Source: Clostridium sp. CAG:413
GTDB lineage: Bacteria; Bacillota; Clostridia; Oscillospirales; Acutalibacteraceae
DNA length: 39,890 bases
Reading direction: 5' to 3'
NCBI GenBank assembly: GCA_000431775.1
Contig: FR888191.1
Location: 28,875 to 68,764 of the forward strand
A program made the translations under genes and the position numbers. The notes below the pieces were generated by a model. It saw nothing but the letters and a program-made list of their open reading frames with translations. It was not told the origin of the DNA and searched no databases. Positions 2,201 through 31,316 of the stretch are shown here, piece by piece. Positions within the stretch are counted from its first letter, which is position 1. Each line of letters starts with the position of its first letter.

Positions 2201-3692
2201 ATGAAAAAGCTCAGTGCCGATGTGTGTGCGGTAACGCACGCAGGCAGGGTAAGACGGGAAAACGAAGATAACTACAGCCTCAACGGCAGGATGACTACGA
2301 CCGATCTGCGCAAAGGCTCGGCCTATGTGCAGCATATGACGGAGCCGTTTCATCTCTCCGTTTGCGACGGTATGGGCGGCGAGAGCTACGGCGAGCTTGC
2401 CTCGGGCATAGCTGTCGAGACCATAGCCGCTCACGCATCCCGTATTTACGACTCGGGCGAGGATTTCAGCTTCGCCGTCTCCAACTGCCTGGACGATGCG
2501 AATACCCGCATATGCCGTAAAATAACCGAAAAGGGCAAGCGGATGGGCACCACTCTTGCGGCTATCTATGCCGTCAAGGGCAGCATCATCTGCGTCAACA
2601 TAGGCGATACCCGCATTTATCACTACTCAAAGGGCGTGCTTGATCAGATCAGCTTTGATCACACCCACGCTCAGACGATCGTCGACGCGGGGCAGGTGTC
2701 GCAGGATAATATGAGCCGCATTCCCGATGCGAAGCGCTTGACCCGCCACCTCGGAGTTTTCCCCGAGGAGTCGAATCTTTCGCCCAACATCAGCGTTATC
2801 AACGACGTTGACAACGGCGATATAATCATGCTTTGCAGCGACGGCTTGACGGATTACCTGACCGACGACGATATCACGGGCGTGCTCTCGACGAGCGACA
2901 GCCCGCAGGACGCCGCAGGCAAGCTCGTCAGAATGGCGCTCGAGCGCGGCGGCAAGGATAATGTCACCATCATCACCGCGTTTATTCAGGCGGAGGAGAC
3001 TGCGATATTCGCCACGAGAGCGGCCGCAATGGTCGGCGATACCGACGCGGACTACGAAGAGGAATACCGCAACAGCTACGGCTCAAATCAGACCGAGGGC
3101 GAGGAAGCAACCTCACCGTATGCCAACGCCGATGCGAGGGCTTATATCAAGCCGACGGATAAGGCGAAAGTGCTCAAAATCGCGGGCATAGTCGCGGCCG
3201 TGGCGCTTGTCTTGGTTGCGGCGGCGCTTGTCATCAAAACAGTCGTCAAGGGTAAGAATGAGCAGGAGACGACATTCCCGCTCATCACCGAGGAGATTAG
3301 GACTTATACCTATCCCTCGACCGCCCCGATAGATATCTGGAGCGAGCTGCCGACCGAGGAGAGCACCTCTCAGACGGAGCCTAAGACCGAGCGCAGCACT
3401 CGGAGGCACACGACTACCAGACGCGCAAACCGCACCACGACCACCCGCAGGCATACAAATCCCGCAACAAAGCCGACGACGGCGCCGCATTCGACCGCCC
3501 CCGTGACCGAGGCAACCACCCCCCCCCCCCCCCGGGACCGGCCCCCCCCCCGCCGCTCATACCGAGCCTGTAACTCAGCCCGCAACGGAGCCGGTGACCA
3601 AGCCGAGCGAGGCGCCTGTTCCGGAAAGCCAGCAGGTTACCGAGCAGCCGGCAACTCCCAATAACCCCGCTCAGAACCCGCCGGAGCAGTAA
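2201..3692 (+). CDS. Membrane-anchored PP2C-type Ser/Thr phosphatase; frame broken by a poly-C tract
   Basis: Residues 1-263 form a PP2C/PPM (PrpC-like) phosphatase that removes phosphate from Ser/Thr, normally opposing a PASTA or Hanks-type kinase. Metal-binding motifs are intact: R-E-N-E-D-N (19-24), D-G-M-G-G (56-60), G-D-T-R (135-138), S-D-G-L-T-D (213-218) and G-G-K-D-N (250-254). A transmembrane helix (about 325-347) follows, then a Thr/Pro/Arg-rich tail that should be extracellular. The uninterrupted frame stops at 3664. However, its last 50 or so residues become Arg/Ala-rich after C15 (3519-3533) and C10 (3542-3551) tracts. Removing one C restores a Thr/Pro/Glu tail (TEPVTQPATEPVTKP-like) ending at TAA 3690-3692, so I give that as the intended end. 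The cause may be slippage in the cell or a sequencing error. Confidence 0.8.
3519..3551 (+). repeat. Poly-C homopolymer tracts (C15 and C10) in the phosphatase tail
   Basis: A run of 15 C (3519-3533) and a run of 10 C (3542-3551) are separated by eight bases. The downstream frame that keeps the Pro/Thr-rich composition is one base out of register with the phosphatase frame, so one tract differs from the intended length by one base or by an equivalent shift. Confidence 0.9.
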
Positions 3693-3700
3693 AATAATCA

Positions 3701-3735
3701 ATCCCGAGGACTCATATGAGCCTTCGGGATTTTTT
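3701..3735 (+). terminator. Rho-independent terminator after the phosphatase gene
   Basis: Arms ATCCCGA and TCGGGAT, with inner GG/CC and CTC/GAG pairs around an ATAT loop, run straight into TTTTTT. It begins 9 bases after the restored stop codon at 3692, which independently supports that gene end. Confidence 0.85.
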
Positions 3736-3739
3736 GCGG

Positions 3740-4455
3740 TCGAAACGGTATGTTATATGATTTAATGCGGCGATGTAAAGCATCAGTCAAGTCGGTTCCC
3801 TCTGACAAGGGTAAGCGCATTTTTCGGCACACATCGCAGGGGACGGCATCCTCGATGTCTCGCAAAATAGTTTCAAATGCAAATCACCATCGTAGGGGCG
3901 AACTGCGTTCGCCCGCTTAGAGCGCACAATACTGCAACAATAAACTGTCGCTCGTCGCTTAGGCTCCCCCTCAAGGGAGCTGTCGGTAGGACTGAGGGAG
4001 TATTTATAAAAGTACAAAGCCGATAGTTACTTCCGCCTTCTCCAAGGAGTCCACTATAGCAGACAGCTCGGTGCTAACTTTGGGCAACCACACAGTGCCG
4101 TTTCTCCCACTTGCTTGCAATTCCGGGCTCCTTTTGAAAGGAGCTGTCACGGAGTGACTGAGGATTGTTTGGTAGATTTTTAGAGCAAAATATTATTGAT
4201 AGTATGACGAAGCAGTTTTGATTAAATCGTAGGGGACGACGTCCTCGGCGTCCCGCAAACAAAACCGTAATGTGAATTGAATACCGTTAGGGGCGAACTG
4301 TGTTCGCCCGTTTAAAATTAGAGTGCCGTCAGTGACTTCAGCCTCCATCTGACGAGGGAGAGAAAGGAGAAACCGATAAATTGCGGTAAATTTGCGTAAA
4401 ATCGTCTCTCCCTCAAGAAGGAGCCTGAGAGGCAAGCAGCAGCGTCTCCTACACG
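3740..4455. repeat. Gene-free region with several families of interspersed intergenic repeats
   Basis: I find no credible gene here. Three short repeat types recur. Type A is a CTCCCT...AGGGAG hairpin followed by CTGTC and GGACTGAGGG: copies at 3964-4001 and 4126-4167, with decayed copies near 3790, 4040 and 4404. Type B is TCGTAGGGGAC-GACGTCCTCGGCGTCCCGC-like: copies at 3834-3866 and 4227-4260. Type C is CGTAGGGGCGAACTGYGTTCGCCCG, containing a GGGCGAAC/GTTCGCCC palindrome: copies at 3890-3918 and 4285-4313. Types A and B reappear at 38.5-38.9 kb. Some short reading frames cross this area, but they simply translate the repeats. Confidence 0.8.
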
Positions 4456-4459
4456 GTGA

Positions 4460-4624
4460 TGAAGCGTTTGCCGACGGCAAACGTGAAGCAGAAACCTGAC
4501 GGTTTCTGTGAAGCACTCGCTGCGCTCGCATGAAGCGAAGCGCCCGTACCTTTCCGTGCGGCGAAGCCGCGCTTCATAGGGCGAAGCCCTGCTTCACTTT
4601 TCATGCACCGTAAGGTGCGCTTCA
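4460..4624. repeat. Array of short hairpins punctuated by TGAAGC / GCTTCA
   Basis: Four TGAAGC hexamers (4460, 4484, 4509, 4531) are followed by three GCTTCA hexamers (4571, 4591, 4619), so the block as a whole is an inverted repeat. The gaps hold unrelated perfect mini-hairpins: GTTTGCCG/CGGCAAAC (4466-4482), CAGAAACC/GGTTTCTG (4489-4508), GCGGC/GCCGC (4558-4570), GGGC/GCCC (4579-4589) and GCACC/GGTGC (4605-4618). It ends 4 bases before the tRNA-Leu terminator. No function is recognised. Confidence 0.8.
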
Positions 4625-4627
4625 TTG

Positions 4628-4659
4628 AAAAAAGCACTTGCGTATGCAAGTGCTTTTTT
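4628..4659 (-). terminator. Terminator of tRNA-Leu(CAG)
   Basis: A perfect inverted repeat, A6-GCACTTGC-GTAT-GCAAGTGC-T6, lies directly downstream of the tRNA on the minus strand. It is symmetrical, so it could also stop plus-strand transcripts. Confidence 0.9.
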
Positions 4660-4660
4660 C

Positions 4661-4747
4661 TGGTGCGGGTAACAGGACTTGAACCTGCACAGCCTTGCGA
4701 CCATTAGAACCTGAATCTAACGCGTCTGCCAATTCCGCCATACCCGC
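4661..4747 (-). tRNA. tRNA-Leu, anticodon CAG
   Basis: Read on the minus strand, the 7-bp acceptor GCGGGTA/TACCCGC closes the molecule. There is a D arm, an anticodon stem TTAGA/TCTAA with a seven-base loop carrying CAG, a long class II variable arm, a T arm with GGTTCAAGTCC, and an encoded CCA end. At 87 bases it has the expected size for leucine tRNA. It decodes CUG. Confidence 0.95.
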
Positions 4748-4815
4748 ATATATATGCTCCTTATTTTTACACGGCGGAGCTGCCGAGGACGGCTCGAAAT
4801 GAGCTGATCGTCTTA

Positions 4816-4848
4816 GTAAAAAGAGGATTCCGATGAAGGAATCCTCTT
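4816..4848 (-). terminator. Terminator of tRNA-Leu(GAG)
   Basis: AAGAGGATTCC and GGAATCCTCTT form an 11-bp stem with a 6-base loop, followed on the minus strand by TTTTT. The stem begins at the final A of the tRNA CCA end. The 68 bases between this and the next tRNA show no convincing second promoter. Confidence 0.85.
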
Positions 4849-4931
4849 GGTGCGAGAGACGGGACTTGAACCCGTACGGGATTACCACACGCCCCTCAAA
4901 CGTGCGCGTCTGCCGATTCCGCCACTCTCGC
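4848..4931 (-). tRNA. tRNA-Leu, anticodon GAG
   Basis: Acceptor arms GCGAGAG/CTCTCGC, a D arm closely matching the neighbouring leucine tRNA, an anticodon stem CACGT/GCGTG with loop TTGAGGG giving GAG, a class II variable arm, a GGTTCAAGTCC T loop and an encoded CCA. It decodes CUC and CUU. A consensus promoter stands just upstream. Confidence 0.95.
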
Positions 4932-4961
4932 GTAGCGCCTGTTCCTCTCGGAACGCTGTTT

Positions 4962-4990
4962 ATTATAGCAAAGACGAGCAAGGATGTCAA
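4962..4990 (-). promoter_or_regulatory. Perfect consensus sigma-A promoter for the tRNA-Leu genes
   Basis: On the minus strand TTGACA (4985-4990), 17 bases, TATAAT (4962-4967): a full match at both hexamers, as expected for a stable-RNA promoter. It lies about 30 bases upstream of the mature tRNA 5' end. Confidence 0.9.
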
Positions 4991-5019
4991 GCATTTTTTG
5001 AAAAAATTTATCCACAATT

Positions 5020-6612
5020 TTATTTTTCTTGTTCGGTGATCTTTTCGCTGATCTCCTTAAATACAGGGGCGCAGCTCACGGCGCCCTCGCCGCCGTCCTC
5101 CTTTAGGATGACTACGGCGTATTTCGGCTTCTCGGCGGGGAACCAGCCTGCGAACCATGCATTATATATTTCGCCGTCCTCGCCGCTCCTACCCGTTTGG
5201 GCGGTCGCCGTTTTGCCCGCAGCGCTGACAAGCTCGCTCTGCGCCCGTCTGCCGCTGCCGTTTGAGACGACTTCCGCAAGATACTGCGAGAGCTTTTCGG
5301 CTGTGGCGGGCGAGATTATTTGCCGCTTCTCGATGTAATGCAGCGTTTCGGTCAGACTGCCGTCAGCGTCGACCTCGCCCTCGATGAGATAGGCGGGGAA
5401 GTAAACGCCGCCTCGGGCTATCGCCGCCATCATGCAGCATATCTGCACGGGCGTTGCCGTCAGGGCACCCTGACCGAAAGAAATATTCGCTATTGCCGCC
5501 CTTGAGTCAAGCTCCGCCGCGGCGGGCAGATTGCCGCTCTTTGACTTTATCCCGTCGGCGAGAAGCGTTTCACTGCCGAAGCCGAAGCGCTCGGCGGTTT
5601 TGATTATATTCTCCGCGCCCACCTGTTGAGCGAGCGCCGCAAAATAGGTGTTGCATGAATTCGCCGTGGCGGCGCACAGATCCTGTATCCCGTGCCCGTC
5701 CTTTTTGTGGCAGTTGAAGGTCACGCCGCTGTAGTCGGCGCTGCCCGTGCATTCGTATTCAAAGTCGATTATGCCGCTCTCGAGCGCAGCCGCCGCAACG
5801 ACGGGCTTGAACACCGAGCCGACGCTGAACGGCAGCAGGGCGCGGTTTATGAGGGGCGAATTCCCGTCATTGAGACCTGCGGCGATATTATACTGATCAA
5901 AGGACGGGCGGGAGACCATCGCGCGGATCGCGCCGCTACCTATCTCTATGACCACGGCGCACGCCTTGACCGCGCCCGACGAATCGAGCGCCTGCTCGGT
6001 TATTCGCTGGATATCTCTGTCTATAGTCAGCGCAACGCCCGTGCGGCTGCTGCCGACGGTCGAGATGTCAATGTTATAGCCGAGCATCATCCTTCCGTTT
6101 GCGGCGGCGGAGAAATATGCCCGCACCTCGGAACGCCCTTTACTCAGCAGGTCGTTATACGACTTCTCAATGCCGCTTATCCCGTCGCCCGCAGAGTCGA
6201 GGTAGCCAATCAGGTGGCAGGCGAGCCGCTGAGACGAATACCGCCTCGGAGTCGCGACGATGCGGACATCCTCACTGCCGACGGCGGAGGAATCAACCTT
6301 GTATGCCACGGGGCTGCCCTTCTCCATGCGCTCCTTTGCCGCCGAAAAAAGCTCCGCAGACAGCATTGAAGCGAGCTGCCGCAGCGCCTCGGGAGTAGGC
6401 TTCACAACGGCGGTGTATTCATACTCGCAGTTGGTCAGCGTACGCAGACGGCAGTCATATATCGTGCCACGCAGCGAAGCTATCTCAATGGATTTCGACG
6501 ACGGTGTGTAAGAAGCCCGAACTTTGCCGTTCGCAATGCCGTAGGTGCGTATCTCAATGCTCGCAAAGACGGCGAGCACCATAAGGAATACGCAAATCAC
6601 TCTTTTTTTCAC
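5020..6612 (-). CDS. Class B penicillin-binding protein (peptidoglycan transpeptidase)
   Basis: Cross-links peptidoglycan outside the membrane. The 530 residues begin with a membrane anchor (about 4-23), then a non-catalytic N-terminal domain, then a transpeptidase domain. Catalytic Ser266 and Lys269 sit in S-V-F-K, the second motif is S-C-N at 319-321, and the third is K467-T-A. Family members normally have K-T-G here, so the Ala is unusual. It is shorter than most SpoVD/FtsI proteins and has no PASTA domains. Translation starts at GTG 6612, preceded by a GGGGGGA ribosome site. That site is also part of the terminator hairpin after ychF. The target may be division, elongation or sporulation; the context does not decide. 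Confidence 0.9.
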   Translation of the reverse strand: MKKRVICVFLMVLAVFASIEIRTYGIANGKVRASYTPSSKSIEIASLRGTIYDCRLRTLTNCEYEYTAVVKPTPEALRQLASMLSAELFSAAKERMEKGSPVAYKVDSSAVGSEDVRIVATPRRYSSQRLACHLIGYLDSAGDGISGIEKSYNDLLSKGRSEVRAYFSAAANGRMMLGYNIDISTVGSSRTGVALTIDRDIQRITEQALDSSGAVKACAVVIEIGSGAIRAMVSRPSFDQYNIAAGLNDGNSPLINRALLPFSVGSVFKPVVAAAALESGIIDFEYECTGSADYSGVTFNCHKKDGHGIQDLCAATANSCNTYFAALAQQVGAENIIKTAERFGFGSETLLADGIKSKSGNLPAAAELDSRAAIANISFGQGALTATPVQICCMMAAIARGGVYFPAYLIEGEVDADGSLTETLHYIEKRQIISPATAEKLSQYLAEVVSNGSGRRAQSELVSAAGKTATAQTGRSGEDGEIYNAWFAGWFPAEKPKYAVVILKEDGGEGAVSCAPVFKEISEKITEQEK

Positions 6613-20674: not shown

Positions 20675-21624
20675 TCAATGATTTATCATAAGGAAAGCTG
20701 CGGCGTCGGAGTTCCATGCGCCGTATTCGGGGTCGTCCCGCTTGTCGCTGAATACTCCCTGCTCGGCGAGAAACCTGCCCATATAGGCGCTGACCTTGGC
20801 CGCGCCGTAGTAGTTGAGGTGGTCGCCTTTGTCGCGGGTGTCCGACGCCCAGTCTATGGGTATCTCGTTTTGCAGCAGGTTCATGTCTATGAATTGCAGC
20901 CCGAGGCGGCGGGCGAGGGCATCAACGCCGTTGTGCTTCTCCATGCTCCAATTCTTGGTGCTCGGCACGCTCACAAGCAGCAGCTGCGCCCCGTTCTTCT
21001 CGCAAAGGGCGTTGATCTTCTCAATATATTTGAGGCATTCCTTCGGCACGGTCTGCGCCTTGTCGCTGGGCGCCATATACCCGTCGGTCGAGGCGGGGTT
21101 CTGAGCGGTGCTGTAGAGATAGCCTCTGGCTCGTTGTCTCTCTCCTTAATGTCGGAGCTTTGCCAGCCTTTCGGCAGCAGCGACTTCCAGCGGTCGTGGT
21201 ATTTGAAAACGCAGAATGCGTCCTGCGCCTTGGATGTGATGACGTTTGCGCCGGAGAATCGGCTGTATATCGTGTCCGTTTCGAGCACGACTATTTTCGG
21301 GCTTTGGTGCTTAAAGGTCGTTGACAGCAGCTTGTATGAATAACAGAGCTTTTGCAGCGTTGAGCCGCAGACATATGAGCTGACTCCGCTCTCGTTCCAG
21401 ATGCTCAGGGGTATGAATGCGCTGTAGGATTCGCTGTCGCCGAGGAAAATGACGTCTATCGAATTCTCTTTTTCCGACATGATACCGCCGATCAGCGGGT
21501 CGTCAAGCACGTTGCCCTGCGACATGGAGCGTGGCTTGACCATGACCGATGTTATCAGCAGCAGAGCCGCAAGCGCGACGATAAATGCGGCTGAGTGAAA
21601 GATGTTTTTAGCTGTAATTTTCAT
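20675..21624 (-). pseudogene. SGNH/AlgX-DltD-like membrane-anchored protein, frameshifted
   Basis: The partner of the MBOAT gene, starting 10 bases after it. The ATG at 21624 opens with a membrane anchor (about 9-28), then N-S-I-D-V-I-F-L-G-D-S-E-S-Y-S, where G-D-S is the SGNH nucleophile block. After about residue 165 (D-I-K-E-R-D-N-E) the frame turns into Arg/Pro-rich nonsense. The sensible continuation is in another frame (R-G-Y-L-Y-S-T-A-Q-N-P) and runs to 20675, including G-D-H-L-N-Y-Y-G with the Asp/His of the active site. A single-base indel between about 21115 and 21150 explains it. The paralogue at 30243 is intact. Either this gene is recently broken or the sequence has an error. Likely role: completing O-acylation of a surface polymer. 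Confidence 0.75.
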
Positions 21625-21634
21625 AACTGATTCC

Positions 21635-23266
21635 TCAAAAATCGGCGTAGATGGGGTCGACCGGTGTGTAGCCGGGGCCGTATGCGCCGAGGATAACGAT
21701 GTAGATTATCAGCGCGAGTATCGCGGCGTAGTGCAGGGCGGGGTGCTTCTCACGCAGAGCGCTGCGGATGTCGACGCCCTTTTCGCTCAGCAGGCTGATG
21801 ATAAAGACGACGGCGACCGTTATGCCGACCGCGACAAAGTCGCCGATATCAACTCCGAGGGCGGTGAAAAGCTCCTTGCCGTAGGCGGAGAAGGTGAAAT
21901 CGGTCACGGCTTTTTTGAGCATCACAAAGCCCGCCGTCGCACCGTTGGCGCGGAAAATCAGCTCGCCTATGACGATGAGGATATCCGAGCGGATTATCTG
22001 ACCGATGCGGTAGGGGGCGGAGTCGGGGCTGATTTTCAGCCGCTCGTTGCTCCGTTTTATCAGCGGGGCAAAAAATCTGCCGACCATTATTACGACGAAG
22101 TGATAGAGGCCGAAGAGAATGTAGTTCCACGCGGCCCCGTGCCAAAGACCGTTGACGAGCCATACGCAGAGCAGCGCGACGCTGCCTGCGAGCAGCGGGC
22201 CGTATTGATTGCCGAGCCTCTTGCGGGCGGCTTTTGTCAGATGCTGCATCGGCTTTGACATCGTGACGGGGTAAAAGAGATAATCCTTGAGCCACTCGCC
22301 GAGGGTTATGTGCCAGCGCTTCCAAAATTCGGATATCGTCTTTGAGAAGAACGGGCGACGGAAATTCTCGGGCATTGTAACGCCGAGCATCTGAGCGATG
22401 CCCGTCACGGCGTCCATTGCGCCTGAGAAATCCATATATAATTGTATCGTGTAGCATACGGCGGCGAGGGCGATGACTCCGCCGTCATACATATTGTAAT
22501 TGTCAAAAACCTCTTTGATAAGGGGATTCAGCCTGTCGGCGACGACTATCTTTTTCATCATGCCGTAGAGCAGGCGCTCAAGCCCGAGGGTGAGGTTTGA
22601 GAAGTCAATCCTGCCCACGCTCCAAAGCTGCTCCGCCGTCTGAGAATAGCGGCAGATGGGGCCCTCAGTTATCTGCGGGAAGAACGCGAGCCATAGGGCG
22701 AGCCTCGGCAGGCAGTCATCGGCTTTGACTTTTTCACGGTAGACGTCGACGAGGTATGATACCGCTTGCAGCGTGAAGAACGAGATGCCGAGCGGCAGCA
22801 GGTATTTCGGCACGTTGAAGCGGAAGTCAAGCCCGAGCAAGCCGAGCAGGGAGTTGACGTTCGCTGCGGCGAAGGCCGAGTATTTGAGCACCAGCAGCGT
22901 GCCGAGATGCAGTGCGGCGGCGAGGGCAAGCACGCCTCGGCTGCGGCGCTGATATGCCTTTTTGATCTCTTTGCGCTGCTCCTTTTCGGCTTCTTTCAAC
23001 GCCTCGGTGCGCTTTGATATGATGCGGTCGAGCCACAGCCCGAAGTAATGCGCCGAGAATATCGACAGCAACAGATATATTATCAGCTTGCCGCTGACGA
23101 GCCAATAGAAGCCGAAGCTCAGCGCGAGCAGCGTATAGCGGCGGGCTTTTTGCGGGGTCAGGGCGTATATCAGCAGGCATATCGGCAAAAACAGCACGAT
23201 GTAATCAAAGCTGAAAAAAGATGTCAGATCGGGGGCTCCCGAGCCGGATATGAGAGATGAGAGCAT
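21635..23266 (-). CDS. MBOAT family membrane-bound O-acyltransferase (DltB/AlgI type)
   Basis: Transfers acyl groups across or at the membrane to an extracellular polymer or lipid. The 543 residues form about a dozen hydrophobic segments. Family motifs: L-P-L-G-I-S-F-F-T-L-Q (157-167), F-F-P-Q-I-T-E-G-P-I, Y-M-D-F-S-G, F-W-K-R-W-H-I-T-L-G-E-W-L, and W-H-G-A-A-W with the catalytic His376. GGGAGG lies 8 bases before the ATG. It is followed by its SGNH-like partner, as AlgI is with AlgJ/X and DltB with DltD. It is a clear paralogue of the MBOAT at 28624. No ligase or carrier is adjacent here, so the acyl donor is unknown. Confidence 0.93.
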   Translation of the reverse strand: MLSSLISGSGAPDLTSFFSFDYIVLFLPICLLIYALTPQKARRYTLLALSFGFYWLVSGKLIIYLLLSIFSAHYFGLWLDRIISKRTEALKEAEKEQRKEIKKAYQRRSRGVLALAAALHLGTLLVLKYSAFAAANVNSLLGLLGLDFRFNVPKYLLPLGISFFTLQAVSYLVDVYREKVKADDCLPRLALWLAFFPQITEGPICRYSQTAEQLWSVGRIDFSNLTLGLERLLYGMMKKIVVADRLNPLIKEVFDNYNMYDGGVIALAAVCYTIQLYMDFSGAMDAVTGIAQMLGVTMPENFRRPFFSKTISEFWKRWHITLGEWLKDYLFYPVTMSKPMQHLTKAARKRLGNQYGPLLAGSVALLCVWLVNGLWHGAAWNYILFGLYHFVVIMVGRFFAPLIKRSNERLKISPDSAPYRIGQIIRSDILIVIGELIFRANGATAGFVMLKKAVTDFTFSAYGKELFTALGVDIGDFVAVGITVAVVFIISLLSEKGVDIRSALREKHPALHYAAILALIIYIVILGAYGPGYTPVDPIYADF

Positions 23267-25698: not shown

Positions 25699-27201
25699 AT
25701 GCAGATAAATATAACCGAATGGCTTGAGCAGGCCGCTGCGGCTCACCCCGGCAGAGCGGCCTACTCGGATAAGGATTCGTCGATAGAATTCGGCACCTTG
25801 CGCCGCTATGCCCGCTCTATAGGCACGGCGGTCGCGGCGAAAAGCGAGCCTCGCAAGCCCGTGGCGGTATTCTCCGGCAGACATATCCTGACCCCGGCGG
25901 CGTTCCTCGGGGCGGCGTATGCGGGCTGTTTCTACGCCCCCATCGACTGCAAGCTCCCCGCCGCAAGGATAGAGCAGATACTCGGCACCCTTGCTCCGCA
26001 GCTTTTGATAACCGACAGGGCAAGCCTTGACGAGGTGAAGGCTCTCGGCTTTGATAATGAAAGAATAATAGTTATAGAGGACGCGATAGAGCGCCCCGCC
26101 GACGACGCTGTGCTCGCCGCAAGGCTGAGCGGGGCGAATGAAGAGGATCCGCTCTATATCATATTCACCTCAGGCTCGACGGGCAGACCGAAGGGCGTTA
26201 TCACCTCGCATCATTCGCTCATGTGCTACCTTGACGCCTACGCCGAGGTGATGGGCATCGACGAATCCGACGTGCTCGGCAATCAGTCGCCGCTCGATTA
26301 TATTGCGGCGGTGCGTGATATATATCTGCCGCTCAAATGCGGCTGCTCCACCGTTATCATACCGAAGGAGCTGTTTATGACCCCTGCTGCGCTCTTTGAC
26401 TATATGACCGAGCGCAAAGTGACGGCGGTCGGCTGGTGCGTGTCGGCATTGACACTGCCCGCCTCTCTCGGAGCGTTTGAGCACTCCGCGCCGAAATATC
26501 TTAAAAAGATATGCTTCTCCGGCTCGGTGATGCCTTGCAGATACCTCAGAATGTGGCAGCTCAACCTGCCGGGGGCTAAATTCGTCAATCAATACGGCCC
26601 CACCGAGGCTACCGCCTCCTGCACATACTATGAGGTGAAGGAGACCGTTGACGAGGGCGACGTTATCCCGATAGGCCGCCCGTACCGCGATTACCGTGTA
26701 TTCCTGCTGAATGAGGACGGCGCGGCAGTCCCCGACGGCGAGGAGGGCGAGATATGCGTATCCGGCCCGATACTTGCCCTCGGATATTACAATGACCCCG
26801 AGCGCACGGCAAAGGATTTCATCCAAAATCCGCTGAATTCCGCTTACCGTGAGATAATATATAAGACGGGCGATATCGGCGTTATGAGAGCTGACGGCGA
26901 GCTGATGTTCAAGGGGCGGCGCGACCGCCAGATAAAGCATCTCGGCCACCGTGTGGAGCTTGACGAGATCGAGCGTGCCGCCTGCCGCACCGAGGGCGTC
27001 ACCGAATGCTGCGTCCTCTATGACAGGGAGAAGGAGACGATATGCCTATTCTATACAGGCACGGCGAGCGTGCGTGAGCTTTCGCTCTCGCTCCGTCAGA
27101 CCCTGCCCGGCTTTATGATACCGAGGAAAATGAAGCAGCTCGAGGCAATGCCCAAGCTGCCGAACGGCAAGACCGATATGAACACACTGAGAAATTATTA
27201 A
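25699..27201 (+). CDS. Amino-acid-type adenylating ligase (DltA/NRPS A-domain-like)
   Basis: Activates a carboxylic acid with ATP and loads it on a carrier protein, presumably the one encoded next. The 500 residues match DltA in length. Core motifs: F-T-S-G-S-T-G-R-P-K-G (156-166), Y-G-P-T-E-A (299-304), Y-K-T-G-D (388-392), G-R-R-D-R-Q-I-K (406-413) and the catalytic Lys491 in P-N-G-K-T-D. Asp200, in P-L-D-Y-I-A-A-V-R-D-I-Y, aligns with the Asp that anchors the alpha-amino group in DltA (F-D-L-S-V-M-D-I-Y). An amino-acid substrate is therefore likely; which one cannot be read. AAGGAG precedes the ATG. First gene of a five-gene operon. Confidence 0.88.
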   Translation: MQINITEWLEQAAAAHPGRAAYSDKDSSIEFGTLRRYARSIGTAVAAKSEPRKPVAVFSGRHILTPAAFLGAAYAGCFYAPIDCKLPAARIEQILGTLAPQLLITDRASLDEVKALGFDNERIIVIEDAIERPADDAVLAARLSGANEEDPLYIIFTSGSTGRPKGVITSHHSLMCYLDAYAEVMGIDESDVLGNQSPLDYIAAVRDIYLPLKCGCSTVIIPKELFMTPAALFDYMTERKVTAVGWCVSALTLPASLGAFEHSAPKYLKKICFSGSVMPCRYLRMWQLNLPGAKFVNQYGPTEATASCTYYEVKETVDEGDVIPIGRPYRDYRVFLLNEDGAAVPDGEEGEICVSGPILALGYYNDPERTAKDFIQNPLNSAYREIIYKTGDIGVMRADGELMFKGRRDRQIKHLGHRVELDEIERAACRTEGVTECCVLYDREKETICLFYTGTASVRELSLSLRQTLPGFMIPRKMKQLEAMPKLPNGKTDMNTLRNY

Positions 27202-27215
27202 AAGGAGAAATTAAA

Positions 27216-27446
27216 ATGAGAGAAAAACTTATGGCTATCCTTGAGGAGCTCAGACCCGACGTTGACTTTGAGAATGAAAAGCAGCTTATCACCGACGGCA
27301 TACTCGAATCCTTTGATATAGTCGCCCTTGTCGGCGAGATAAGCGACGCCTTCGACGTCGAGCTTCACGTTGAGGATCTCGTGCCCGAGAATTTCAATTC
27401 CGTAGATAACATGATAGAGCTTATCAAAGAATTAGAGGATGAATAA
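27216..27446 (+). CDS. Acyl/peptidyl carrier protein (DltC-like)
   Basis: A 76-residue carrier whose Ser32, in D-G-I-L-E-S-F-D, should receive a phosphopantetheine arm; DltC has D-G-L-L-D-S in the same place. It has an acidic four-helix layout with a short N-terminal helix. AAGGAG lies 8 bases before the ATG. It sits 14 bases after the ligase stop and one base before the decarboxylase start, as expected for tightly coupled partners. It should carry the activated amino acid as a thioester, in the cytosol or at the inner membrane face. Confidence 0.9.
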   Translation: MREKLMAILEELRPDVDFENEKQLITDGILESFDIVALVGEISDAFDVELHVEDLVPENFNSVDNMIELIKELEDE

Positions 27447-27447
27447 T

Positions 27448-28617
27448 ATGAATTCGGAAGCATTGCAGGATATAGCCGCGTCCTTTGCCACGCCCGCATT
27501 CATCTTTGATGCGGACGAATTCGGCAGGAGGGCGAAAAATATCAAAAGCGCCATCGGCGGCGCCTCACTTTGCTACTCGATAAAGGCGAACCCGTTTTTG
27601 CTCGCCTGCTTGCCCGAGGAGATAGACAGGGTCGAGGTTTGCAGCCCCGGCGAGCTGGCGATCTGCCGCAGGGTGGGCGTCGACCCCTCGACTGTGGTGT
27701 ATTCGGGTGTCAATAAGGGCAGTGAGGACATCGCCGAGGCTATAGAATACGGGGCGGAGCTGCTCACGGCGGAGAGCCTCAGGCAGCTTGGACTTATCAA
27801 TGCCGCCGCCCTTGCCGCGGGCAAGAGGGTGAGAGTCGCTCTCAGGCTCACGAGCGGCAATCAGTTCGGCATGGACAGCGAGAATCTCAAGCGCGCAGTT
27901 GCCGAAAAAGGCAGCTATGAGGGCGTTGACATCGTCGCTATCCATTATTACTCAGGCACCCAGAAAAAGAAGCTCGCAGTCGTCGAAAAGGAGCTTGCCG
28001 AGCTTGAGAAGCTTGCGGATACGCTCGAGGAGCGCTTCGGGCTGTCTGGCATTTCGCTCGAATACGGCCCCGGTCTGCCCGCCGATTACTTCGGCGACGA
28101 CCCCGAGGGGCGCGATATGGCGGTGCTCGCCGAGGCGGGCGCAATGATAGCCGCCGTCGCCGCAAGGCGCAGCGTTACCGTGGAATTCGGCCGATTCCTT
28201 GCCTCCCCCTGCGGCACTTATCTCACCGCAGCGGCTGATATAAAGAATAATAACGGCGAGAATTTCGTCATCTGCGACGGCGGAATAAATCACCTCAAAT
28301 ATTACGGGCAGACAATGGCGATGCAGACGCCGCCGATAACTCTGCTCGGCGACCACGGCGAAAAAACCGAGGATTACACGCTCTGCGGCAGCCTCTGCAC
28401 CACGGCGGATATCCTCGTTCGTAAAGTTACCCTGCCCGCCCTCTCGGTCGGCGACGTGCTCGCCTTCGGCAGGTGCGGAGCTTATTCCGTGACGGAGGGC
28501 ATAGGGCTGTTCCTCTCAAGGCAGCTCCCCCGCATAGTGCTCCATTCGGAGAGGGGCGGCAATAGGCTGCTGCGCGACTTCTACGGCACGGATATATTGA
28601 ATTCCCCTGCGGAGGTG
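27448..28617 (+). CDS. Fold-type III PLP decarboxylase (LysA / BtrK-like)
   Basis: A 390-residue alanine-racemase-fold enzyme of the diaminopimelate/ornithine decarboxylase family. The PLP lysine is Lys46 in Y-S-I-K-A-N-P. Other marks: E-V-C-S-P-G-E-L (63-70), H-Y-Y-S-G (166-170), Y-G-P-G-L (206-210), E-F-G-R (246-249), and Cys317/Asp321 in L-C-T-T-A-D, equivalent to the decarboxylase Cys...Asp pair. G-A-Y follows at 344. Those residues favour a decarboxylase over a racemase. There is no other lysine-pathway gene nearby, and the adjoining ligase and carrier suggest the substrate is carrier-bound, as for BtrK on Glu-S-BtrI in butirosin biosynthesis. I start at the ATG 27448 (GAGG 9 bases before), not 27439. 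The stop TGA occupies 28618-28620. Confidence 0.85.
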
Positions 28618-28623
28618 TGACGG

Positions 28624-30231
28624 TTGGCGATAGTTTCATTTAATTTTTTTGTCTTTTGCGCCGTCGTACTGATACTTTATTATATATTCCCGTCAAAGAA
28701 ATATCAGTGGACCGTGCTCCTTGCGGCGAGCTACGCCTACTATATTATTTGCTGCAATAAATACACGTTTTATCTTATAGCTACCACCGCTATGGCGTGG
28801 ATAGGCGGGCTTATCATGGACAGGCTCACCGTCAACTGCGCCGCCGCAGTTGAGCGGAATAAAGAGCAGTGGGATAAGGAACAGCGCAAGAAATACAAAG
28901 CCAAGGTGCAGAGCGGCAAGCGGGCGGTCATGGCCGCCGTGCTGGTACTGAATTTCGGCATTCTTGCTTTCCTCAAGTATTTTGACTTTGCTGCCCGTTC
29001 GGTGCATTCGCTGCTCGGCGCGGTCGGGCTGGATATAGCGATGCCCGATTTCAAATTGGTGCTCCCGCTGGGCATTTCGTTCTACACATTCCAGACCATG
29101 GGCTATGTGATAGACGTTTACAGGGGCAAATTCAGGGCGGCAAAGAATCCGGCGAAGTTCGCGCTTTTTGCCTCGTTCTTCCCGCAGATAGTGCAGGGCC
29201 CCATCGCCTTTTACAGCGACCTTGCCTATCAGCTCTATGCGCCGCATGACTTTAACTACAACCGCTTCAAGAGCGGCGGCATTCTCGCACTTTGGGGTCT
29301 GTTTAAGAAGCTCGTTATCGCCGACCGTGCCGTGGCAATGGTCAGGCTCGTCGCGGGCAATTACTCCGACTTCAAGGGCACATATATACTTATGGCCGTG
29401 TGTATGTACGCCATTCAGCTCTATGCGGATTTCTCGGGCGGCATTGATATCTGCCGCGGCTTTGCGGAGATGCTCGGCATCACCATGGCGCAGAATTTCA
29501 GGCAGCCGTATTTCTCAAGGAGCCTGACCGAGTATTGGCACCGCTGGCATATCACCCTCGGCGAATGGCTGAGGATATATCTTTTCTATCCGATATCCAT
29601 TTCAAAGCCGTTCCTCAAAATGGGCAAGCAGCTCAAGAAGCACGGCCTCAAGCATCTCGGCAAGGTGTTGCCCACGAGCATTGCTTCGCTGATAACCTTT
29701 ATCGTTATCGGCGTGTGGCACGGGGCGGCGTGGAAATATGTGGCGTTCGGCCTCTTTAACGGCATGGCGATCCTTATCTCGAGCCTGATGCAGCCGTGGA
29801 CTCAAAAGCTCGCAAAGGCGCTGAGGATACGCCGTGAGAATTTCTTCTACAGGCTGTTTGAGATCGGCCGCACGATGCTGCTCGTGTTGGCGGGCTATTA
29901 CTTCGATATCGCCCCGGGCTTCAAGGCGGCGATGAAGATGATGCTGCGCTCGGTGACGGATATCCATCTGTCGGATCTCAGCAATTTTGCCTGCCTTGCC
30001 CCGAGCAAGCTCGACAGGCTTGATTACCTTGTGATCATCTTCGGCTCGCTGGTGATGCTCATCGTCTCGATAGTGCGCGAGCACACGGGTAAGGAGGTCA
30101 GGCAGCAGCTCATGCGTAAGCCGACGATAGTGCAGTGGCCGATATATATCGCCCTTATCATGCTTATCGCGGTGCTCGGCGTTTACGGCCCGGGATGCAA
30201 CCCCGCAGACTTTGTATATATGCAATTTTAA
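28624..30231 (+). CDS. MBOAT O-acyltransferase of the dlt-like operon
   Basis: The DltB/AlgI-type membrane acyltransferase that would accept the carrier-bound group and move it to an extracellular acceptor. The 535 residues are very hydrophobic. Motifs: L-P-L-G-I-S-F-Y-T-F-Q (147-157), F-F-P-Q-I-V-Q-G-P-I, Y-A-D-F-S-G-G, Y-W-H-R-W-H-I-T-L-G-E-W-L and W-H-G-A-A-W with His366. It is paralogous to the protein at 21635. The start is TTG 28624: GGAGGTG lies about 6-12 bases before it, and it follows the decarboxylase stop by 3 bases. Confidence 0.93.
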   Translation: MAIVSFNFFVFCAVVLILYYIFPSKKYQWTVLLAASYAYYIICCNKYTFYLIATTAMAWIGGLIMDRLTVNCAAAVERNKEQWDKEQRKKYKAKVQSGKRAVMAAVLVLNFGILAFLKYFDFAARSVHSLLGAVGLDIAMPDFKLVLPLGISFYTFQTMGYVIDVYRGKFRAAKNPAKFALFASFFPQIVQGPIAFYSDLAYQLYAPHDFNYNRFKSGGILALWGLFKKLVIADRAVAMVRLVAGNYSDFKGTYILMAVCMYAIQLYADFSGGIDICRGFAEMLGITMAQNFRQPYFSRSLTEYWHRWHITLGEWLRIYLFYPISISKPFLKMGKQLKKHGLKHLGKVLPTSIASLITFIVIGVWHGAAWKYVAFGLFNGMAILISSLMQPWTQKLAKALRIRRENFFYRLFEIGRTMLLVLAGYYFDIAPGFKAAMKMMLRSVTDIHLSDLSNFACLAPSKLDRLDYLVIIFGSLVMLIVSIVREHTGKEVRQQLMRKPTIVQWPIYIALIMLIAVLGVYGPGCNPADFVYMQF

Positions 30232-30242
30232 GTGAGTGTGTT

Positions 30243-31316
30243 ATGAAAAAAATTATCAAAGCAACAGCCTTTGCGCTGGTAGTGGCTTTTTGCTTAGCCC
30301 TTGCGACGGATTTTCTGAGCATGACAGACCGCGAGGACACCATGCATGTGCGTGGGTATTTTGAAGAGCCGAATAACTCGATAGATGTGCTTATGATTGG
30401 CGCAAGCGAGCTTTACACGGGCTTCAGCTCGCCGCTTGCGTGGAAGAAATACGGCTTCACGAGCTACGCTCTGTCATATTCGGGGGCGCAGGGGTCCCTC
30501 TATAAGACGATGCTGACCCAGGCGCTCGACACGCAGAATCCGAAGCTCGTCGTATTCGAGGTCGGCGGCTTCCTATATTATGAGAATTATCTTAAAAACT
30601 ACAAAAAGATGCATATCTGGTTCGATAACGTGCCGGACGGCGAAACGAAGCTGGAGACGCTCGAGCAGGTGATACCCGCCGAGAAGCAGAATGAATACAA
30701 ATATCAGCTCCTCAAGTATCATTCAAATTGGAAGCACCCGAAGGACTGCTTCAAGGGCTGGCTCGGCAAGATGGCGCTGCGCCTGAGGGGGTATTCCTAC
30801 ACCAAGGCTTTCGCCACCTCCGCAATGTGCCGCAAGACGGCGGAGCTTGAGAAATACAACCCGCCGATGTGCGATTATTCGGAGCAGTGCCTGCGTGAAT
30901 TGCTCGAATACTGCAAGTCGATAGGGCTTAAAAATGTGCTCTTTGTGCGTGGGCCGCATTGCACCGACAGCAAGGGTCACATGAAGGTCTATGACAAGAT
31001 GGAGGCAATGATAAACGAATACGGCTATGTATTCCGCAACTATGACAACGCCTTCAAGGAGATAGGCCTTGACACCAAAACGAATTTCTACAACCGCGAC
31101 CACCTCAACGTGCTCGGCATGGAGAAATACACCGATTTCCTCGGCAAGTATATCGTTGAGCACTACGACGTGACCGGCTACCACTCAAAGGAAGTCATAA
31201 AGGAGTGGGACGAATGCGTCGTTAAGACCGAGGAGGTCATACAGAAGTGCAAGGATAATATCGCCGAGGGCAAATGGGCAAGACGATACGAACTGAGCGC
31301 CTTTATCCCCGATTGA
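30243..31316 (+). CDS. SGNH/DltD-AlgX-like membrane-anchored protein
   Basis: 357 residues with an N-terminal membrane anchor (about 4-22) and an extracytoplasmic domain. N-N-S-I-D-V-L-M-I-G-A-S-E-L-Y matches the G-D-S-E-S block of the paralogue at 20675. N-R-D-H-L-N-V-L-G near residue 280 gives the Asp/His of an SGNH-type site. Note G-A-S rather than G-D-S. It probably acts with the MBOAT at the outer face, like DltD with DltB, in handing the acyl group to the acceptor. I chose the ATG at 30243, 11 bases after the MBOAT stop, although the frame stays open into the MBOAT gene. A strong terminator follows. Confidence 0.8.
   Translation: MKKIIKATAFALVVAFCLALATDFLSMTDREDTMHVRGYFEEPNNSIDVLMIGASELYTGFSSPLAWKKYGFTSYALSYSGAQGSLYKTMLTQALDTQNPKLVVFEVGGFLYYENYLKNYKKMHIWFDNVPDGETKLETLEQVIPAEKQNEYKYQLLKYHSNWKHPKDCFKGWLGKMALRLRGYSYTKAFATSAMCRKTAELEKYNPPMCDYSEQCLRELLEYCKSIGLKNVLFVRGPHCTDSKGHMKVYDKMEAMINEYGYVFRNYDNAFKEIGLDTKTNFYNRDHLNVLGMEKYTDFLGKYIVEHYDVTGYHSKEVIKEWDECVVKTEEVIQKCKDNIAEGKWARRYELSAFIPD

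Follow-up and report, generated by a model that had tools for sequence, protein, structure and literature searches.

A Dlt-like operon with a BtrK-like decarboxylase in Clostridium sp. CAG:413: a candidate system for omega-aminoacyl modification of the cell envelope

We analysed a 39,890-nucleotide stretch of contig FR888191.1 from Clostridium sp. CAG:413 (the window; positions are counted from its first letter), in which five genes at 25699-31316, all on the + strand and with successive gaps of 14, 1, 3 and 11 bases, form an operon for a ligase, a carrier, a pyridoxal phosphate (PLP) decarboxylase, a membrane-bound O-acyltransferase (MBOAT) and an SGNH-fold protein. The operon probably specifies a Dlt-like envelope acylation system that makes its own omega-aminoacyl group. 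The strongest result of the analysis is that two ligase pocket types, A and B, track the decarboxylase; besides this tie, the sequence basis of our reading consists of the parts, their recurrence together and the catalytic residues. An earlier note on this DNA had described the same five genes, and its coordinates and gaps were confirmed. The features of the operon are as follows:

25699..27201, + strand: stand-alone amino-acid adenylating ligase of pocket type B; motifs PLDYIAAVRDIY and NQYGPTEATASC; Ile at the FDxS Asp position, Arg four residues further
27216..27446, + strand: carrier protein; DGILES, predicted phosphopantetheine site Ser32
27448..28620, + strand: LysA-fold PLP decarboxylase, BtrK-like; K46 in YSIKANP, C317 in GSLCTTAD
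28624..30231, + strand: MBOAT acyltransferase; TTG start; H309, H366; C-terminal FVYMQF
30211..30228, + strand: codons of the six terminal residues of the MBOAT, FVYMQF, fitting the FxYxxF shuttle motif
30243..31316, + strand: membrane-anchored protein with a predicted SGNH fold; S55, H287; DltD among the top structural matches

The open reading frame call began the decarboxylase at 27439; the ATG at 27448 yields the 1-base gap to the carrier.

Recurrence of the operon and the ligase pocket types

Named genomes were scanned with a two-row alignment (the window decarboxylase and BtrK), which gave four loci; two of them, L001 from a Lachnospiraceae metagenome-assembled genome (MAG) and L002 from a Clostridiales MAG, carry all five operon families. 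In a class-wide search, the decarboxylase exceeded 225 bits in 13 of 391 genomes. These 13 matches and G002 (a two-piece match of 171 bits) were counted as operon type and the other 23 genomes were not, the tier below the operon type topping out at 158 bits. An order-wide search found the decarboxylase in 47 of 392 genomes at 1e-40. The resulting set held 56 loci, namely 55 loci from 54 genomes and the window; L110 and L129, which have ligases of other kinds, were kept, while loci of G526, G548, G655, G695 and the third match in G745 stand outside the set.

All five families occur together in 38 of the 56 loci, so that their co-occurrence is above chance, and the five genes form a real system. 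The ligase, carrier and decarboxylase alone were found in 13 loci, and five were otherwise incomplete. The earlier note had expected a conserved gene order across Clostridia genomes, which was not borne out: the commonest orders were ligase-decarboxylase-carrier-MBOAT-SGNH (23 loci) and MBOAT-SGNH-ligase-decarboxylase-carrier (six), the rest were rarer, and some loci were split. Since the same families recur in varying order, it is the gene content that is conserved. A profile search for the MBOAT covered 14 genomes lacking a complete locus (G336, G649 and G667 lay outside it) and found a family MBOAT of at least 540 bits elsewhere in 13 of them and none in G462. We also observed that in L050, L100, L101, L112, L113 and L123 the ligase-decarboxylase-carrier cassette lies near purA without an MBOAT-SGNH pair, family MBOATs being present elsewhere in the genome.

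Beyond these genomes, near-identical decarboxylases are abundant in the protein collection (6548 matches at 1e-10; the best 120 of the 6548 all have 99-100% identity). No relative was found in a scan of genome contigs with the bare decarboxylase or in a viral scan with the two-row alignment; a plasmid search gave 171 records, all below 60% identity, and PHROGs gave nothing informative.

The window ligase matches the AMP-binding family PF00501 (1e-60) and the amino-acid adenylation model TIGR01733 (319 bits, cut-off 317). Among 55 ligase rows, 41 were of type A, with pocket motifs PFDFDVSVKDIY and NLYGPTEITCNC, and 11 including the window were of type B, with PLDYIAA[IV]RDIY and NQYGPTEATASC; one was DltA-like and two were outliers. 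In an alignment to LgrA, type A retains the FDxS Asp and has Lys four residues on, whereas type B has Ile in its place (11/11), then Arg four residues on. The amine-binding Asp in the FDxS core of alpha-amino-acid adenylation domains is thus missing from the window ligase; the two positions are presumably 235 and 239 in GrsA numbering. Neither this replacement nor the second MBOAT-SGNH pair described below figured in the earlier note.

Several observations tie the pocket types to the decarboxylase. In the ligase tree, which omits L131 and L132 (wrong frames), L110, L129 and L167, type B is set apart by a branch with a support of 100; the branch that sets off type A has only 74, and L045 and L047 stand away from the other type-A ligases. 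The type-B loci always run ligase-carrier-decarboxylase (11/11), and ten of their 11 decarboxylases form one clade (99), that of L115 standing apart. Ligase and decarboxylase therefore evolve together. For the converse test, DNA patterns for the type-A and type-B motifs were run on genomes. The type-A pattern occurred in 36 of 392 genomes, all within the 47 with the decarboxylase (0/345 without it), and the type-B pattern in four of 246, again all with the decarboxylase (0/231 without it). The hypergeometric value for the type-A association, 1.5e-41, is overstated because the genomes are related. By pattern or locus, 45 of the 47 genomes with the decarboxylase have a type A or B ligase; that of G462 is an outlier, and G548 is outside the count. 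All trees here are quick searches with SH-aLRT (approximate likelihood ratio test) support only, and the alignments exclude L117 and L104 (stop codons) and L119. As a separate observation, L110 and L129 have divergent decarboxylases of the operon clade with ligases of other pocket types.

Sister operons with a ligase, carrier, MBOAT and SGNH gene, other ligase pockets and no decarboxylase occur in the same and in other genomes. Type C, with the pocket motif PLYFDACLKE, has no adjoining decarboxylase in six of six loci. A first impression that type C is restricted to decarboxylase genomes was rejected by a reverse test, in which 12 of 18 genomes with a type-C ligase (limit 55% identity) had no decarboxylase at 1e-40. 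The 20 ligase loci taken from decarboxylase-free genomes had neither an A/B motif nor a decarboxylase. L187, L188 and L193 encode an amino-acid racemase next to the ligase. It scores 173-192 bits against TIGR00035 (cut-off 93), and the model that fits it best is cysteate racemase, at 192-197 bits (cut-off 190), so that its substrate could be cysteate, Asp or a different amino acid. In L188, genes for two transglutaminase-like proteins (3529-5830) also separate the SGNH gene from those for racemase and ligase. In L192, L194, L196, L197 and L199 a GNAT protein is encoded between ligase and carrier. These loci suggest a Dlt-like family in which the tailoring enzyme changes along with the ligase pocket.

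Identity of the decarboxylase

The window decarboxylase matches Orn_Arg_deC_N and Orn_DAP_Arg_deC in Pfam. As a single sequence, its best match among solved structures was BtrK (9.9e-33), ahead of the best LysA (1.6e-28), and a profile of 14 decarboxylases gave 213 bits for BtrK, 178 for 6knh (which we take to be SbnH) and 168 for the best LysA. The operon enzymes carry the BtrK-type active-site motif LC[TS]..D (LCTTAD in the window), where the LysA counterparts are CCESGD in three LysA rows, which score 490-491 bits against TIGR01048, and CETGD in 2p3e. In a tree of 72 rows, from which the wrong-frame rows Y_L008, Y_L033 and Y_L035 had been removed, a branch with SH-aLRT 100 separates the 56 operon decarboxylases from all other rows; BtrK, LysA and the exosortase-A-type Sphingomonas enzyme of L004 (524 bits against TIGR03099) fall outside this clade. 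Structure matches, Cys motif and clade thus uphold the proposal of the earlier note that the enzyme is BtrK-like and not LysA.

That an ordinary LysA or another housekeeping decarboxylase came to lie in a dlt operon by chance is hardly credible. The enzyme does match the LysA model TIGR01048 with 163 bits, and one source names the near-identical protein P0075 a diaminopimelate decarboxylase. However, 163 bits is far under the cut-off of 297.9, the operon decarboxylases score at most 191 bits, and both the separate clade and the tie to the ligase type argue against it. Moreover, a second, LysA-like gene is present in 52 of the 54 operon genomes, five over the cut-off and 47 at 258-292 bits; because these 47 score below it, the separate genes are likely, and not proven, to be LysA. 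In L008, the one case examined, the product of this gene is closer in alignment to LysA than to the window enzyme. On the Cys motif, the tree, the separate LysA-like genes and the TIGR01048 scores, LysA identity was rejected.

Alternatively, the PLP enzyme might epimerise a carrier-bound amino acid, so that the operon would make a D-aminoacyl group. Fold type III includes alanine racemase, Ala_racemase_N of Pfam matches, the near-identical P0039 is named alanine racemase by one source, and an amino-acid racemase accompanies some sister operons; yet that racemase belongs to another family, and the window enzyme has a complete decarboxylase C-terminal domain (PF00278) together with the BtrK-type Cys motif, which makes epimerisation quite improbable.

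Outside the operon clade, the relatives in L052, L057 and L060 have a Pfam-confirmed ATP-grasp protein beside the decarboxylase in three of three examined; in L052 a BtrH_N protein and a thioesterase are encoded there as well. BtrJ of the butirosin pathway is an ATP-grasp enzyme. By its predicted genes, the L052 neighbourhood resembles the BtrJ/BtrK butirosin arrangement, and the three loci are possible uncharacterised butirosin-like pathways in Clostridia.

Acyl transfer, proposed mechanism and acceptor

The carrier gave sub-cut-off matches only (DltC 33 bits with a cut-off of 68, a second DltC score of 22.5 of 52, AmcB 27), and its Ser is conserved in all 54 aligned family carriers. The MBOAT belongs to PF03062, with H309 and H366 conserved in 42 of 42. 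At the C-terminus the Tyr is likewise found in 42/42, the last Phe in 39/42 and an exact FxYxxF ending in 13/42; the window protein has this ending (FVYMQF), as in PatA-like fused acyl shuttles. Judged by these residues, the MBOAT end is a DltX/PatA-like acyl-shuttle motif. The last protein has no Pfam or NCBIfam match; its SGNH fold is supported by a structure prediction that used 61 of 120 listed homologues, with DltD among the best fold matches.

Considering these results, we propose a plausible model for the system. The type-B ligase would adenylate an acidic amino acid and load it onto the carrier via the side-chain carboxylate. The BtrK-like enzyme would then remove the free alpha-carboxylate on the carrier, giving an omega-aminoacyl thioester, for example beta-alanyl from Asp or gamma-aminobutyryl (GABA) from Glu, as homology predicts. 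By comparison with DltB/DltX and PatA, the MBOAT would take the acyl group off the carrier and transfer it through the membrane to Tyr532 in its C-terminal FVYMQF motif. The SGNH Ser would accept it from there and pass it to a hydroxyl group of a glycopolymer outside the cytoplasm, forming an ester and giving the polymer a fixed positive charge. Side-chain loading is suggested by analogy: according to PMC7857480 and PMC11284099, the substrates of BtrK and VinO are amino acids bound to a carrier. A type-B ligase, having lost the Asp, might accommodate an amine that lies farther from the carboxylate being activated, as in GABA.

The order of the first two steps could also be reversed, with the PLP enzyme acting on a free amino acid and the ligase loading the omega-amino acid (beta-alanine, GABA or similar), later steps being the same. 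Ile in place of Asp in the type-B ligase would suit a substrate without an alpha-amino group, and the fold relatives LysA and ornithine decarboxylase (ODC) use free amino acids. On the other hand, BtrK, the closest solved relative, works on a carrier, the ATP-grasp neighbours in L052, L057 and L060 are BtrJ-like, and type-A ligases retain the Asp yet accompany the decarboxylase in the genomes searched. VinN, according to PMC11284099, takes 3-methylaspartate and not the decarboxylated product. We regard decarboxylation before loading as unlikely and retain decarboxylation on the carrier.

Several points weigh against the proposed model. Loading through the distal carboxylate is deduced solely from the need for a free alpha-carboxylate. 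GABA thioesters are prone to cyclisation, and a protecting group is employed in butirosin biosynthesis; no protecting enzyme is encoded in the operon, which speaks against GABA or for another acyl group. The sister-operon racemase exceeds the cysteate-racemase cut-off, which means that the ligases of sister operons may use substrates other than Asp or Glu. SGNH enzymes other than DltD match the last protein with similar scores (Foldseek, VIA; Z), 13 of 56 loci lack an MBOAT-SGNH pair beside the loading genes, and the window genes examined included none that could be recognised as making an acceptor polymer.

The sugar genes around type-B loci suggest a surface polysaccharide, rather than teichoic acid, as the more likely acceptor. 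A bacterial sugar transferase lies near L115 and L122, the latter also with glycosyltransferases, and L090 adjoins an NDP-sugar dehydratase-like gene. The teichoic acid named in the earlier note was not supported: nothing pointed there, although no LtaS/TagF search was made, DltA exceeded its cut-off in one of 54 operon genomes, and polysaccharide genes surround some of the type-B loci. In ten type-A loci, of which four are close relatives (L038, L095, L102, L106), a response regulator and a histidine kinase adjoin the operon on the same strand (by Pfam in three loci, in the rest by sequence family), which would fit an envelope-stress response. In the window, the upstream gene of the MOFRL family (glycerate-kinase-like) and the opposite-strand downstream genes for NifU, a NifS-like desulfurase and CysK do not indicate an acceptor.

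A small molecule or a lipid-linked sugar might be acylated instead of a polymer. The type-B cassette stands beside a hexapeptide acyltransferase and YfhO in L105 (4353-10367) and L099 (4748-10852) and with two acyltransferase-3 proteins in place of the MBOAT in L115 (4978-7060), so that other acceptors are feasible and the loading cassette seems portable. We nevertheless consider a non-polymer acceptor improbable, as an MBOAT-SGNH pair accompanies the cassette in 38/56 loci and the pairs named in PMC12148441 modify envelope polymers.

A second MBOAT-SGNH pair lies in the window at 20675-23266 (- strand), 2.4 kb upstream of the operon:

21635..23266, - strand: second MBOAT; ends PIYADF; 59% identity to the type-A operon MBOAT of L048
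20675..21624, - strand: second SGNH protein, in two overlapping frames, 20971-21624 and 20675-21076

The GDSES and DHLN motifs of this SGNH protein are in different frames. This MBOAT is of the type-A kind and may draw on the same acyl carrier as the operon MBOAT, so one loader may serve two transferases.

A broader picture can be drawn, about which we are evenly divided. In Clostridia mostly without canonical dltA, diversified Dlt-like operons would have their pocket and tailoring enzyme swapped together (a PLP decarboxylase with types A and B, a racemase, a GNAT protein, none in type C), each attaching an amino acyl group of its own kind to envelope glycans; the A/B cassette would make omega-aminoacyl groups shareable by several MBOAT-SGNH pairs per cell. 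Canonical DltA exceeded its cut-off in the one operon genome mentioned above (one more reached 551 of 559.85) and in none of 54 genomes without the operon.

Relation to known systems

A close parallel is Dlt itself (DltA, DltC, DltB, DltX, DltD). Common to both are the ligase, the carrier and an MBOAT with two invariant His, and the best fold matches of the window SGNH protein include DltD. The window operon differs in adding a BtrK-like decarboxylase and in fusing the shuttle motif to the MBOAT. The gaps of the operon leave no room for a DltX gene between its genes, and no DltX search was made outside it. A canonical Dlt system was rejected, as ligase, carrier and MBOAT all score far under the Dlt cut-offs: the ligase reaches 256 bits against TIGR01734 (559.85) and 270 against PRK04813 (476), and the MBOAT 132 against DltB (375). 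Among the matches listed in a search of the open-licence PMC literature (titles and abstract starts), no paper described a decarboxylase in a Dlt-like operon. D-alanylation is the textbook route by which Gram-positive bacteria tune surface charge. If beta-alanyl or GABA esters are made, a large group of Clostridia would be tuning its surface charge by another chemistry, which might affect its resistance to cationic peptides.

In the butirosin pathway, BtrJ-BtrI-BtrK turn Glu into carrier-bound GABA; no solved decarboxylase is closer to the window enzyme than BtrK, and a carrier is present in both. The window has an adenylation-domain ligase instead of BtrJ, its product would go to a membrane acyltransferase, and the operon decarboxylases form their own clade. 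Macrolactam starter pathways (VinN-VinL-VinO, FlvN) also combine an adenylation enzyme, a stand-alone carrier and a PLP decarboxylase acting on carrier-bound 3-methyl-Asp, or Asp for FlvN, and the adenylation-domain Asp is conserved in the VinN/FlvN family too, according to the review PMC11284099. These pathways feed a polyketide synthase, and the likeness is one of described enzyme roles. The exosortase A-associated ligase and decarboxylase (TIGR03098, TIGR03099) are the same pair of enzyme kinds, but the window proteins reach only 199 bits (cut-off 592) and 161 bits (478), and L004 lies outside the operon clade.

Peptidoglycan O-acetylation by PatA-PatB likewise pairs an MBOAT bearing a C-terminal shuttle motif with an SGNH partner. 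PatA uses acetyl-CoA, whereas the window operon combines a carrier with a fused shuttle. In PMC12148441, MBOAT/SGNH pathways other than Dlt are described as lacking a carrier, and an operon with both a carrier and a fused-shuttle MBOAT is therefore an exception to that statement.

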